Positions 3,614 through 48,490 of a stretch of 64,000 nucleotides of DNA are shown here, piece by piece. The translations under genes and the position numbers were made by a program. Within the stretch, counting starts at the first letter, position 1. Every line of letters starts with the position of its first letter. A model generated the notes under the pieces. It did no database searches, was not told the DNA's origin, and saw only the letters and a program-made list of their open reading frames with translations. The DNA is from Halichondria panicea (lineage: Eukaryota; Porifera; Demospongiae; Suberitida; Halichondriidae): NCBI RefSeq assembly GCF_963675165.1, contig NC_087378.1, positions 6,708,573 through 6,772,572 on the forward strand. Reading direction: 5' to 3'.

Positions 3614-6600
3614 ATGGCGTCCAGAATGAATAGTAAAGAATCGCTCTACAAGAAGAGGACACTGGGGATGGCTAACAGGGAGGTCAGGGCAAAACTGAAG
3701 TCCCAGCAGAGCAAGACCAAGCGTGATGATCTCCTGGCCTCAAAGAGGAGGATTCCTCTGAGTATCATTCAGGAGGAAAAATCATCTCCCAGTATGTGCT
3801 AGCAAATCTAGTTGTAGTCATACAATCACTTTCTATTCCCTCCATGCAGAGCCCAAGAAGGCGACGACGAAGTCGCAGGAATCAGAGCTACGACTACAGA
3901 AGCTTAGAGAATGGAAGAAAGCAAGAGACGAGGCTAAGAAGAAATCTCAGCAGGCCAAGAAACCGCTTGTACCAACTACAACTAAACCAAAAGCTCATAA
4001 CATCTTCAACCCCAAGCCATGGGTGTCGACGACCACCACAACTAACAACTCATTCGGCAAATCAAAAACAATTCAGAAATCGGAGAAACCTGTTGCTAAG
4101 CCTATGCCCAAGCCAGCTGCTGTGAAAACTGTTCGACCTGCTGTTAAATCGACAAGACTGGCTGTATCTGTAGCCAGCACTAAATCAACTGCTTTGAAGA
4201 CCATCAAGCCAACAACTAAACCACCCACAGCCACAACCAAAGCTCCAAAGAAACTTCCAGTTAAACCAAAAGAAGACACCTCCAAAGCTATGAAATTGCG
4301 CCCTCAAACCAGAAGTATGACAAAATCTGTCGTGTCTAAAGTCAAGGCTGAATCTAAGAAGAGCTGCTCTACAAAAATCCGAACTAACTGTGGAAGCAAG
4401 TTGAAGAGTCCCCCTACCAAGTCGTCAAAAAGGACTGTCACCACTCGTAGCGTTTCTATGGTGGCAACCAAAAACACAGCTGAAATGATGGATATCACAG
4501 TTGAAATGTCTAATCCAGCACCTGAAGATGAATCTCTCTCGCAACAAATCACGCCCCCAAGGACTAGACGCTATGATCCGGTACGCCCCTCCCCTTTACT
4601 ACGCAGCCACTCAGCAAGTGTGAAACGTCGTGAAACACAGCTGTTTTTAGGACCCTCTCCCGTTATAGACCCTGCTTGGATGCCTGGACAAAGAAATAAC
4701 TTCAAGAGTTTTGTGCAGCCCAATTTCGATGACGATTTTCGCAGTTTCAGTCCATTTAAATTCGGAGGTTCCGACAACAATTTTCAATTCACTTTTCGTA
4801 AACAGCTGTCCGAGACGATGGCGGACTCGCTGGAGGATGACTTGATCCAAACACCAGTAACACCAGATTCTCGAATTGTGCGTAAGAGTGTTGGTAGTGG
4901 TCGTAAGGGCTCGGTGAAAAGGAATGTCAGTATGGACGAGGGTGCGATGATTGTGGAGGTGGTCAACGAGGAAGCCAGTGGAGAGGAGATGGAGGCTGGG
5001 GCACCTGCACTTAAGGGTGAGTCCCTTTGTTGTTGTTGTTCCCTCCGCCATAGAAACAGTTTGTAGGGGTCGGGGGTCGGTATACATAGAGCTAAAAGCA
5101 CTGTACAATAATGTATGTCAATGTGCCTACCTTTTAAATACCGTATAGCGGGTAATTTTCGTGGGGTAAAATATTCGTTATTTTCGTGAGCAAGCTGACC
5201 TCCACGAAATTTTAACGTAGGTGTGGCTTACTAGAACATATGAATGCAGTGCAGGCAACAAGACTAAACGAAATTTTTACTCACGAAAACCACTGTTTTA
5301 AAGTTGAACGAATTTTTTACCCCACGAAAATTACATACCTGCTATACGGTAGCTAGCCCTCACACTTTATATTTGTGTTAGCACTGTCATGTGATATTCT
5401 TTGTACCTCCAGACAGCTCCCCTGAGGTGACAGAGCCACACATAGACATTGCGTATTTCAGGAAGCTCCACTCGGATGTTGTGGCCAGTCTGAGCTCTCT
5501 GTGTGAGATGTGGGAGGGTAAAACCAGTGCTCTGGAGGACAACCAACCTGGCCCAAACACGGAGGAAGGTGGGTCACATGATACCAGGGCTATGTCACAT
5601 GATTTAAGAGCTAGTATTATTATAAATGCTAAAACTTGTGTCTTTTGTCTCTTTTAGTGCTGGGTCAGATGCGTACTACTGTGTGCCAGGGTAGACTGCT
5701 GATGAGGAAGAAACTGGCCCAGTACTTGGGCCTGGTGAGCATTGCCGAGACACAAAGTGGAGAGAGGGAGACCACCTCGCAGGACCTACAGGTAAACCAG
5801 CTGTACTTGACTGAACCTAGATCGATTGGAAATCCTTGCATCCTAAGTATGCAAGTCCTAAAGTTTTTATCGCACACTCAAAAATCATTTTATTTTGTGT
5901 AATTATATTACATGCATGGTTTCTTTGTGCAGGGTTTCTGGGACATGGTGTATTTCCAAGTGGAGGATGTCTACAAGAAGTTCCATGATCTAGAGGCTTT
6001 GGAGAATAATGGGTGGACAGTCAAGGCCCCTACCCCTAAGAAGAAGAAGGCCACAAAGGTCAGTTAATTATGCCTCGGTGCTCATGCGCAAGCGAGGTAT
6101 ACGGTAGTGTGTCTGTGTGTGTAGACTGCTACAGCTGCTTAAGGATCAATGAAGTAAGTATGCTTCTAGTCATGTTTTCTTGGGATTTTAATTAGTGGAT
6201 TTGCAAAGTAATGCTTCGTTCTCGAGTTATGCCTAGTTTTGCTTACTTGGAATGCCATTGCAGCTTTTTCAGAAGAGCACGTAGCCAAACTTGTTTACCG
6301 AGTGTTGCTACTCTACTTAGTAGTTAGCTCTGCACTAGAACACTAGGTAGCTGCAAGAGTGAGAAGAGAGTTGCAAGGCTCTGCTGATGCGGCCATTAAT
6401 TTTAGACTTGAACTTTTGGTATTGATCGTTTTTAACAACAATCATGGTCGATCATTACCCACTCTTTGAGTTTGCTTGCAGCAAATGCATGTTCATCATG
6501 TGTATTAGTAGCTTTATTAACCCGAGGCGCGTGGGCGGCCACGGGTTATAGTAGTCTGTCTGTTTGTTTGTCTGTTTGTTTGTTTGTTTGTAACGAGTAT

Positions 6601-44530: not shown

Positions 44531-44798
44531 TGTGAAAAAAAAACCTTGAGAGTCTTGGGGTTTGGGTTCTCTTTTATAAAGTTGGGGCGAAAAACTTGCA
44601 TCAAAATGTAGCTCTAGGCTAGCTAGGTCGATATAGACTCGCAGACGTACTTACGAGAAAGAGAAGCCTGAGAACTGCAGAGAAGCCTGTAAACTGCAGA
44701 GACCGAGAGTATGCAGATAGTTACTTAGCACGTGGTCGAGGGCGGCTGCCTGATCACCTCGTTTTTACACAACATGTGATTTAAACGAGCATGCGCCG
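44531..44798. other. Spacer between the retrotransposon and the inverted-repeat element
   Basis: About 270 bp without coding features. It includes a short A run just outside the retrotransposon and a gagaagcctgagaactgcag / gagaagcctgtaaactgcag tandem pair (about 44660-44700). Confidence 0.5.
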
Positions 44799-44851
44799 TA
44801 TAAAAGGGGCGTAGCAGGCCAGGTATCATGGCGCATAAGAAAAAAATGGCG
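44799..44851 (+). promoter_or_regulatory. TATA box and ATGGCG (YY1-like) element upstream of the transposase-like gene
   Basis: TATAAAAGG at 44799-44807 is a canonical TATA box, followed about 40 bp later by AAAAATGGCGAC, which resembles a YY1/initiator motif and is also the start of an upstream ORF. The mirror copy is at 48331-48382. Promoter role is inferred. Confidence 0.5.
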
Positions 44852-44976
44852 ACTGTTTGCGAGTCTTTACAAAACCGTCTGACAAACCCTTACTTATGCA
44901 GAAATACGCCCCTTTTTGGGCCTGCAGAGCCACATGGGCATTACGCATCAGCTAGGACAAGACTTAGTTTCTAAAA

Positions 44977-47465
44977 ATGGCTAATCGTAGAAAACGACCG
45001 CGCCACAGTTTTGACTGCTATCTTGGCTCTCCTGAAGAGAAACAAGCTCTACAGGCAAGGATAGAGAGAGTGAGGAAGAAGCTATCGCCTGCTGGACGTA
45101 CCATTGACAACCTTTCTCTCATAAACGCCATGCTAGACGCTGTAGAAGAGAAACTAGCTAGTGCTGATGAAGGTACGCCCACAAGTGATCAAGGGTCTGT
45201 TAGGCCCTTCTTGAGAGACAATGGTGAGTGTAATAGCCTTCTTTTTACCTAGTTATACAGTCCTGTTCTATCAGGGATGTACACTGGTGATAACAGTCCT
45301 GATGATCAGACCTTGTTCATCACTGAGAAGCGCTGCTTTGATGATTTGATGACAGGGCTGGCGTCATCGTGCTCGGAGTGTTTGGTTCGAAGTTGTTGGC
45401 GACTGGACTCTGTGATTCAGGTAGTTTGTTTTAGCTTGTTTACACTATATGCGTGATTGTTTTATTAGAAAGGGCACGTCATCAGAGTTTTGTACTCTTG
45501 TCGTCACTGCCGGCACCAGAAGAGATCATGGTCTAGCTCTCGCGTGTTTGGAGGACACTTCCTCGTCAATCAGAAGTAATTATTTGGCCACACCATCACT
45601 ATACTGATTAATTTACTCTTATAGGATGGTACACTCTTTCACTTGTGCTGGGATCATTCCATCCCAGTACATACATCTCTCTATGTTCGCTGGACTGGGC
45701 ACAGTTGGTCATGCTTACATCCGGAGAGGTATATATGGTACAAAGACATGTACTTCACTAACTTTCTCTTTCACAGTATACAATAACAACAGCTACCTAG
45801 AGATTGTGGCCGCGGCAGCTGAACACTCCATGCAGTCGGCTGTAGAGGAAGTCAAGGCTCTGCCACACTACAGCACTAAGGGAGAAGTACGTTGTTGAAT
45901 AATTTGTATTTATTTTATTGATTATTCTATTTCAGTGGGTGATAACTGACGCTAGGCATGATTCCACGGCCAATGCGTATCATACGACTGTGCCTTGCCT
46001 TTCAGGAAGGTATGTTAGTTAGTGTTTAGTACATACATGTACTAAGTGTTGTAATTTTTAGCACTCATAAGATCCTTGGCATCTCCACCATCTCTCGGAC
46101 AGAGCACTCGGTAGCTCAGACCAGAGAATTGCAGTGTACCAAGGTTGTTCTTCCCCAAGTCATTGCTAGAGGTAAATGTAACTAACTAACTACGTAATAA
46201 ATTATTTCATTGTATACTAATGATTGTCTCAGGTCTGAATGTTACTGAGGTTGGGCATGACATGCAAGCTCAGGTTGCTAAGTACGTGACACACACCCTC
46301 AATCTCATCAACTCCTATGACACATGGCACGGTATGCTGCATATTATTGGATACATGTAAACTATATGCATCACTATCAGGTACTAAGAACGTAGCCCGG
46401 GAGCTCAAGAAGATCACAGAGGGTCGGGTCAGAGATCGGAACATAACGTGGTTCCCTGAACTCTCTGATAAACGTAAGTGAAGATGATGTTGAGGTACGT
46501 ATACGTCACTGATAAATGTCTATTCATTTAGGGCGCAGTATCAAGATACACTTGTACTGGGCCATGAAGAACTGTGGTGAGGACCCTAACATTCTACAGC
46601 AGATGGCTCTCAACATCCCCAACCACTACAAGGTAAATGTCATCGCCCATTACTGTACTGACTCCAAACTGCTCGTACAGGGTGATCATTCTAACTGCCA
46701 TGCCTCGTCTCCCTGTCGTATGGCTCCCTATATACCCAGTCGTGCTCAGATTACCAACAAGAAGGCAGAAGAGGAGCTCCTTAGGTGCATCAAGGCTACC
46801 TACGTCTTCAAGAATGCGGATGCTTTCTGTCGGGTAATGATAGTAATTTTATTACCGAAAAAAAACTTGCTGTCATGTAGTGTCGGGACACGTTCTGGGT
46901 AGAGTCATTCAACCACCAGCTGCTGATCTACTTGTCCAAACGTATCCACTATTCTGACGAGACTTTTCTCATGAGAATGAACCTGGCCGTACTTGACTGG
47001 GTAAGATGATTACAAAATTTATTTTAAAATGAATTTGTGTGTTGTCATTAGAACGAGAATGTGAATCGTGCCCACACCAGTAAGAGAAAGGTTAAAGACC
47101 TTCGCCGTCCTGACAGGCGTACTGACATGAAAGCTCTCGTGAGTAAGTCTTATCATTTTGCGGGTATGCTTTGGACAGAGTATGTCGCAAGGAACGGCGT
47201 CGATTTGAGGTATGTGTACGTGTGGAAAAGTTGTGTGTGTGTTCCTAAGCAATCGGGTCACTGGCTCTCATATTGACCCCTCAGCTCAGCAACGGTGGAA
47301 TTTTTAGTAGTGAGCATCTTTTTCAACTTACGTTATTACAGTGAGTTTGAGGATATTGAGCCAGATGGTGACAACGATGAAGACTGGCTCACTGATGGCA
47401 TGTTACCCCCCCTTCTGCCTAGTGATGATATGGAGTCAGATTCAGATAGCGACGACAGAGAATAG
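44977..47465 (+). CDS. DDE-transposase-like protein with zinc-binding N-terminal half (14 exons)
   Basis: Exons: 44977-45223, 45275-45420, 45469-45575, 45625-45728, 45777-45886, 45936-46009, 46062-46171, 46233-46331, 46381-46473, 46532-46632, 46681-46833, 46881-47000, 47052-47209, 47342-47465; 581 residues, frame open throughout. The N-terminus is basic (MANRRKRPRHSF). Cys pairs (SCSECLVRSCW, YSCRHCRH) suggest zinc binding. The core has the order expected of an RNase-H DDE fold: WVITDARHDSTANAYHTT (first Asp), VTEVGHDMQ (second Asp), YDTWHGTKNVARELKK, and FWVESFNHQLLIYLSKRIHYS (Glu). The C-terminus is acidic (DSDSDSDD). It resembles a widespread family of invertebrate and fish transposase-like proteins; Kolobok superfamily is my best guess. 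Twelve of the 13 introns are about 47-62 nt (the last is 132 nt). Mobile, or domesticated, is undecided. Confidence 0.6.
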
Positions 47466-47495
47466 GTATTATAATTAATTACAAAACACAACATT

Positions 47496-48220
47496 CTAAA
47501 GTTCCATATTCTCTGCATCGAATGTCGACAAATAGTCCCTGTAGGTCCCATCGACACTAGGGTATCGCCTTCTTATTTCCTGTGTAATGATAACTGTAAG
47601 CAATTTCCGCAGTAACTAAAATTATACTTACTACAATCACACATTTGGGCATTATGTCCCTTTTGTCATGCCTGACAGTCCGCCTCTCCTTCCTCCTCAG
47701 GTACTCCTCATCTCCCCACAGACCCACGTCCTGGAGCAACCTCCAAAACTTCCGATACAACCGGTGCCTCTTTTCATCATTTGCTGGATGAGGTCCACAG
47801 GCACCGGTTAGGAAGTCTGGAGGAAGAGCAATCACACACGGCCCACAGAGGCAGTGTGGACAGCAGTCCTGCAGTCCCTGTAAGACAGGGACGAGGGCAG
47901 AGTCTCTGTAACCCCGTGGATGACTTGGAGAGAGAGCTGCGGACAAATAAGTTTTAATAAAATATCATTGATTATCATGTTTATTTTCTTACTAATAGGT
48001 GGCATTGGCTGATCTGGGACGGCGTCTGGGACAGCCTCCCACCTAAGCTTCACCGTCTGCCTGAGTCCTGCCTCCCGGAGCTCTTTAACTACTTTATTTA
48101 TTTTACTAACGACCACTTGTGGTGGAGTGTCTTTATATTTAACTGTTACCTGTACATGGTATAATTATGATTGAAATGATGACATTTTATTCTTACCTCG
48201 ATCTCTTCTTTGGAAGCCAT
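47496..48220 (-). CDS. Cys-rich small protein, convergent partner of the transposase-like gene (4 exons)
   Basis: Exons 48197-48220, 47993-48149, 47632-47936, 47496-47579; 189 residues in frame. I do not recognise a named domain. Visible features: a charged N-terminal helix (KINKVVKELREAGLRQTVKLRW), a Cys cluster (DCCPHCLCGPC), GACGPHPANDEKRHRLYRKFW, a Leu/Trp-rich LLQDVGLWGDEEYLRRKE, then DIMPKCVIVEIRRRYPS and a C-terminal DYLSTF. The Cys/His spacing could bind zinc. Proteins of this look are common in invertebrate repeats, as I recall, which fits an accessory protein encoded by the same element. Its stop lies 30 bp from the transposase-like stop. The first exon encodes only eight residues and is placed by splice sites. 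Confidence 0.6.
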
Positions 48221-48490
48221 TGTTATTATAACTTATGGCCATGTGGATATTGCACGTGGCCTGGAATGAGCATGTTTTGTTGGTTTATGTGCGTGTACAA
48301 GAGCTGAGTTCTTATCATTTTCAAACTAGGCGCCATTTTGTTCGCAATGATTTTACTTCCGGCCTGCTACTTTCCTTTTATACCGCAGCGGAGGCTGCAT
48401 GATCGCGATTGCTTGCAACGAACGCGTACTGTTTATAAACGCGACATTCTCGTTTAATTATTATTACAAGATCAGAGAAGAGTAATAGAA
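48221..48490. promoter_or_regulatory. Right terminus and divergent promoter region toward FKBP12
   Basis: Holds the minus-strand TATA box (48374-48382), the minus-strand ATGGCG motif (48331-48336) and the leader of the Cys-rich gene. Only 108 bp separate the TATA end from the FKBP12 start at 48491, so FKBP12 regulation must lie in or beside the element terminus. Confidence 0.5.

Follow-up and report, generated by a model that had tools for sequence, protein, structure and literature searches.

The interval 44781–48457 of the analysed window (the whole 64-kb stretch of contig NC_087378.1 of the sponge Halichondria panicea) is very probably an autonomous cut-and-paste DNA transposon of Kolobok type, apparently intact and inserted not long ago, whose gene content is Kol0-like. 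It carries a predicted transposase gene and, convergent to it, a small cysteine-rich gene that, judged from its sequence, is a divergent KolX resembling the ballast domain of P2X7. A preliminary description of the same DNA had proposed a DNA transposon with two genes, active now or until recently, or a domesticated one, and had named it as its best candidate for an undescribed system. The recent activity is borne out by what follows; the system itself is not new, a transposase together with KolX in a TTAA-targeting Kolobok element being already in print (PMC9587614). The families described here are new members of this known kind; the parts for which the literature search described below gave no earlier report are a divergent KolX and matched promoter-like boxes at the element ends.

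The extent of the element was set by comparison with its copies in the 131-Mb genome, in which all copy counts from the genome search are lower bounds. The element runs from TTAA to TTAA, the transposon proper spanning 44785–48453, and its outermost ends read TTAA-ACGAG(C/A)ATG. The sequences TTAAACGAGCATG (left) and CATTCTCGTTTAA (right) are common to the copies, which differ beyond them; the left end of the C9 copy reads TTAAACAAG instead. TTAA flanks both sides of all four near-full-length copies and is the only sequence that their flanks have in common. Positions 44799 and 48382, previously taken as the limits, are not the element ends because the copies match out to the TTAA at 44781–44784 and 48454–48457 and only then diverge; what lies at the former positions are subterminal boxes. 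Across the genome, TTAAACGAG(A/C)ATG occurs 148 times (67 + 81), versus 3 times for the reversed control pattern.

The closest sister, on C16, differs from the window copy by two mismatches in 3677 bp (99.95% identity), and a second copy on C2 is 99.0% identical and lacks 9 nt, in frame. This second C2 copy lies in repetitive flanks for which two paralogous empty sites were found, C11:3315473 (78% identity) and C10:5226710 (84%), each with a single TTAA. The fourth near-full-length copy (G000:C9:3126858-3130762, L049) aligns in two pieces at about 95% identity, with an insertion and deletions, and partial copies occur on C1, C15, C13 and C6. Both genes are open in three of the four near-full-length copies (window, C2 and C16), while the C9 copy combines a broken transposase with a KolX that is open and has three replacements. 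Because near-identical copies sit at other TTAA sites, both genes are open in three of four copies and one copy has two empty sites, the interval is, on this comparison, a recently active transposon. A single genome thus offers a young, apparently intact element and its near-identical sisters, together with at least four related families and with derivatives that are short and non-autonomous.

The gene models of the preliminary description, 14 exons for the transposase and four for the cysteine-rich gene, stand as given: all 13 and all three introns, respectively, are GT-AG, neither frame holds a stop or frameshift, and the two convergent genes end 30 bp apart (47466–47495). In the transposase the residues D243, D309, DTWH (329–332), the zinc finger H395-H400-C403-H404 and E456 follow one another, and two D, DxxH, a zinc finger and then E is the Kolobok order according to Kojima and Bao (PMC9587614); Hikosaka and Konishi (PMC6004289) list DDE, THAP and H2CH as the usual Kolobok motifs. 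The second D and DxxH are also present in the related families B, C and D of this genome (the window element being family A), with DIWH in two of four family C copies, and in family D the final H of the zinc finger is replaced by N (HSDCN). Profile searches matched the transposase to Pfam PF20700, Mutator-like transposase (E 6.5e-7, slightly over the gathering score), and to nothing in NCBIfam.

The inverted repeat reported earlier at 44799 and 48382 is real. The window contains exactly two copies of TATAAAAGGnnnGTAGCAGGCC, one at 44799 (+) and one, inverted, at 48382 (-), and TATAAAAGG and GTAGCAGGCC have two occurrences each in it, both at these TATAAAAGGnnnGTAGCAGGCC boxes. The repeat measures 26 nt at 85% identity; when the 200-bp ends are compared without gaps the top score is 14, a value reached by none of 200 dinucleotide shuffles (mean 8.0, maximum 12). 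The further matches inside, described as equally spaced, are likewise genuine, at near-equal spacing. One left and one right end were compared for each of families A, B, C, D and N, the last a non-autonomous group related to D. TTAAACGAG begins all ten ends of the five families, one copy per end, and lies in exact form at the edge of family similarity in 13 of 19 loci of families B–D (by the right-end motif). Counting from the first T of TTAA, TATAAAAGG starts at position 19 in all five left ends, and TATAAAA (TACAAAA in D) starts at 54–87 in the right ends. The roughly 10-nt sequence behind the TATA box is the same at both ends within a family and differs among families, left–right box scores being 16–26 within families versus 9–14 in 20 cross-family comparisons.

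We infer that the TATA box is the core promoter of each gene and that the variable 10-mer is a putative transposase recognition site. The transposase would then be driven from one end and KolX from the other, with the 10-mer matched at both ends because one protein must bind both. The transposase would pair two matched boxes, cut at ACGAG.../...CTCGT and integrate at TTAA, which would yield the 4-bp duplication; its binding to the boxes could also repress both promoters. In the P element the transposase site overlaps the promoter. P-element transposase binds internal 10-bp sites at each end (PMC7776569). A literature search on promoters, TATA boxes and terminal inverted repeats of Kolobok found no report of matched TATA and 10-mer boxes among the papers searched. 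Boxes matched in this way offer a ready test for co-evolution of ends and transposase.

The identity of the small gene is now clearer than in the preliminary description. The window protein matches Pfam P2RX7_C (E 0.0017), and across six related proteins of the genome this family appears in five (E 0.0007, 0.0009, 0.0013, 0.0017 and 0.2), all below gathering, the match being absent in the sixth. Alignment of the KolX profile with three P2X7 ballast sequences (region of human P2X7 476–595) by hhalign gave a probability of 42% (P 2.7e-4). In families A, B and C three ungapped blocks are collinear with the ballast: CxCxxC with P2X7 C477–C482, N-x3-RH-x2-Y with 542–553, and (M/I)P-x-C-x5-R-x2-YP, read as I-x-P-x-C...YP...Y in the full comparison, with 568–591. 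For families D and E the last block alone is the top match to P2X7. The best ungapped block was reached by 0, 1, 0, 0 and 1 of 300 shuffles for families A to E, respectively. KolX proteins of the Kol0 lineage show clear similarity to P2X7 476–595 and seven conserved cysteines, and P2X7 is held to have arisen through fusion with a KolX (Kojima and Bao, PMC9587614). KolX is divergent here because only four cysteines (C25, C28, C33 and C98 in exon-3 numbering) are invariant in six sequences. The blocks of families A–C match C477, C479, C482, C572 and perhaps C506, while C498 and C499 are unmatched, and the seven-cysteine zinc-binding set of the ballast is thus incomplete; this loss is a departure, since Rump et al. 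(PMC7016195) report the zinc-binding cysteines to be strikingly conserved in all ballast sequences that they found.

KolX is mostly paired with a transposase. The genome search gave 62 KolX matches, merged into 45 loci, and at least 28 of these have a convergent transposase within 4 kb; tblastn on the loci added five (L039, L043, L044, L045 and L046), so that convergent pairing holds at 33 or more of the 45. At L026 and L032 no transposase was found within 1.5 kb on either side, and the other ten loci are assigned neither way. Viewed from the transposase side (one row per cluster; 75 of 284 candidates scored, among the matches listed of 173), a KolX match is missing from 21 of 49 clusters, and a single C1 cluster accounts for 12 of these. 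These 12 transposase-only clusters (G000:C1:88148-1001298) all lie on the + strand, and among the places listed no end motif occurs on C1 before 5.57 Mb. Two of them are about 98% alike over about 3 kb and family D-like, with KolX as a weak last-exon match; the run has the look of a block duplication or of a cluster in a single orientation. At L026 (G000:C4:4202035-4202334) a KolX relative stands with no end motif at up to three mismatches, and a TATA box with a 10-mer closely resembling the right box of family B lies at L026:314; this relative is either a relic or a candidate for a KolX that has been domesticated.

In KolX exon 3, all 15 comparisons between families give a nonsynonymous divergence (dN) of 0.22–0.66 and a synonymous divergence (dS) between 1.2 and saturation, with ratios of 0.09–0.29 where one could be formed, and transposase exon 12 behaves alike in all six between-family comparisons. 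The low dN relative to dS indicates that selection across families has retained KolX over many cycles of transposition, and thus that it is probably needed for spread.

As to what KolX does, it is quite possible, if short of probable, that it acts as a zinc-binding (possibly guanine-nucleotide-binding) regulatory subunit of the transposase–DNA complex and not as an enzyme. In the same transposon KolX might equally well work outside that complex, as a factor for anti-silencing or expression, as an aid to nuclear import or as a control on copy number, which we likewise consider a serious possibility. It is a small protein of zinc type, and the open KolX beside a broken transposase in the C9 copy fits a separable function (or chance, KolX being the shorter target); the prevalent convergent pairing and a putative box-bearing promoter of its own suggest, on the other hand, expression matched to that of the transposase. 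Within the reading of KolX as a subunit, a guanine nucleotide comes in through the ballast domain, which Rump et al. report to bind guanosine diphosphate via R546, H547, R574, R578 and K583, with R546 and R578 the sole members of this set conserved beyond deuterostomes (PMC7016195). In all six KolX sequences the residues that align with R546, Y550 and R578 of rat P2X7 are invariant, a position like H547 is kept in families A–C, and R574 and K583 are not kept; in families D and E, R546 and Y550 are matched via the KolX alignment and not via the direct P2X7 match. P-element transposase requires guanosine triphosphate (GTP) for pairing and joining ends (PMC7776569), and by analogy KolX could be a subunit of the complex that binds both guanine nucleotide and zinc, a combination that we consider unlikely. 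If it were so, KolX would provide, as a separate protein acting in trans, the control by GTP that is built into P-element transposase, and the guanine-nucleotide site of P2X7 would be a leftover of KolX's job in the transposon. An element of this kind could serve to test the function of KolX and, with it, what the P2X7 ballast domain originally did. For the 'ancestral synteny' in which, between sponge and sea urchin, ballast genes lie near two markers (Figure 6 of PMC7016195), the transposase partner of KolX may be the simple explanation.

Several observations weigh against the Kolobok reading or parts of it. The assignment was made by motifs, target-site duplication and gene content against published descriptions. 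The sole family match of the transposase carries the name Mutator-like, and no THAP domain was detected in it (Pfam, E up to 1; PF20700 only). With TTAA as target-site duplication the termini are 5'-AC...GT-3' and not the 5'-RR...YY-3' of Kolobok. A 4-bp TTAA duplication (AC...GT) and a 2-bp TA duplication (AA...TT) give identical letters, and the empty sites fit both; the 2-bp reading would satisfy 5'-RR/YY-3' but conflicts with the 4-bp definition of Kolobok. An empty site was sought for the C16 copy and none was found. For KolX, searches of the PDB with the single sequence and with a six-sequence profile (E up to 10) returned no P2X7, the best matches being unrelated (E 0.4 or worse), and a single-sequence structure model of exon 3 was unusable, with a predicted local distance difference test score (pLDDT) of 42. 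Within family B, KolX copies differ by 1–3 replacements versus 0–1 silent changes, with no skew to silent ones, so that selection on KolX is visible only between families.

A literal Mutator-like identity, as the name of PF20700 implies, was rejected on the TTAA duplication and the DxxH and HHCH motifs. If the element belonged instead to some other superfamily, one that targets TTAA or is Mutator-like (piggyBac or MuDR), and had gained a KolX-like gene, this would account for the Pfam name and for termini that are not 5'-RR, yet we regard it as improbable: target-site duplications of MuDR are 8–11 bp and not TTAA, no piggyBac transposase domain was found (Pfam, E up to 1), and to have DxxH and HHCH after the second D and before E is the Kolobok arrangement. 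In favour of this alternative, a few piggyBac families are reported to encode a KolX-like protein without most of the seven cysteines, as here (PMC9587614). That this copy is a domesticated host gene pair with transposon ends retained by chance is highly improbable: both frames are open, domesticated Kolobok transposases have been reported in Xenopus (PMC6004289) and Nanor and P2X7 have been proposed as domesticated KolX (PMC9587614), but near-identical copies occupy different TTAA sites, a sister copy has empty sites and several families share the same ends.

Table 1. Positions of the features of the Kolobok-type element in the window.
Feature	Position	Strand	Basis
TTAA target-site duplication, left	44781..44784	.	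copies differ outside; single TTAA at two empty sites of sister copy
Left terminus ACGAGCATG, terminal inverted repeat	44785..44793	+	copy comparison; genome-wide motif count with TTAA
Left subterminal box TATAAAAGG + family-specific GTAGCAGGCC	44795..44820	+	inverted-repeat search, family end comparison
Inner inverted-repeat arm, left, containing AATGGCG	44839..44854	+	16 nt, 88% match
Transposase gene (predicted), 14 exons, 581 amino acids	44977..47465	+	Pfam PF20700; Kolobok-type residues
Transposase exons 1–7	44977-45223, 45275-45420, 45469-45575, 45625-45728, 45777-45886, 45936-46009, 46062-46171		
Transposase exons 8–14	46233-46331, 46381-46473, 46532-46632, 46681-46833, 46881-47000, 47052-47209, 47342-47465		
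KolX gene (predicted), 4 exons, 189 amino acids, Cys-rich	47496..48220	-	Pfam P2RX7_C below gathering; family comparisons
KolX exons	48220-48197, 48149-47993, 47936-47632, 47579-47496		
Inner inverted-repeat arm, right	48328..48343	-	16 nt, 88% match, near-equal spacing
Right subterminal box TATAAAAGG + GTAGCAGGCC	48361..48386	-	inverted-repeat search, family end comparison
Right terminus, ACGAGAATG in inward reading	48445..48453	-	copy and family end comparison
TTAA target-site duplication, right	48454..48457	.	copy comparison

Further observations concern the surroundings of the copies and their derivatives. In the window, the ATG of a reading frame (48491 onwards), which looks FKBP12-like, lies 34 bp past the insertion, which may therefore have displaced the promoter of that gene. 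Directly beside the C9 copy, in its right flank (L049, from about position 5464), an inverted repeat GGTGACATATTTT...AAAATATGTCACC flanked by TTAA is perhaps another short TTAA-targeting element, and at G000:C13:2492000-2500000 (L053) two tandem left-end fragments about 0.8 kb apart adjoin a decayed copy. L057 (C1:9808570-9810385) and L058 (C2:3335970-3337760) are non-autonomous, with family D-like ends and little coding sequence left. Among the end-motif places listed there are 13 inward-facing pairs 1.73–1.79 kb apart, and this group may for that reason be numerous.

Among known systems, the element comes closest to the Kolobok Kol0 lineage with KolX (Kolobok-1_XT), reported from sponges, cnidarians, annelids and vertebrates, with which it shares transposase plus KolX, the TTAA duplication, DxxH, a zinc finger that follows the second D and precedes E, and the relation of KolX to the P2X7 ballast domain; it differs in its 5'-AC termini, in a KolX without the seven-cysteine set and in its 14 exons, and the available text of that study contains no mention of matched TATA and 10-mer boxes (PMC9587614). 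Xenopus XKol elements have the same DDE triad and H2CH zinc-finger motif, but usually a THAP domain, which is lacking here, and long single open reading frames in place of 14 exons (PMC6004289). P2X7 ballast, ZCD proteins and Nanor carry CxCxxC, RHxxYR and PxC-x5-R-x2-(F/Y)P in the order seen in families A–C; unlike the ballast, KolX here is without the C498–C499 pair, R574 and K583, and it lies inside a transposon with no receptor part (PMC7016195). piggyBac has the TTAA target in common with the element and, in few families, a KolX-like protein (PMC9587614), but its transposase family is not matched here. The P element is an analogy for the internal 10-bp transposase sites at each end, and it and Kolobok both have a C/DxxH motif (PMC9587614); it differs, as far as the available text of PMC7776569 goes, in its 8-bp target-site duplication, its THAP domain, a GTP-binding domain within the transposase and the lack of a KolX.

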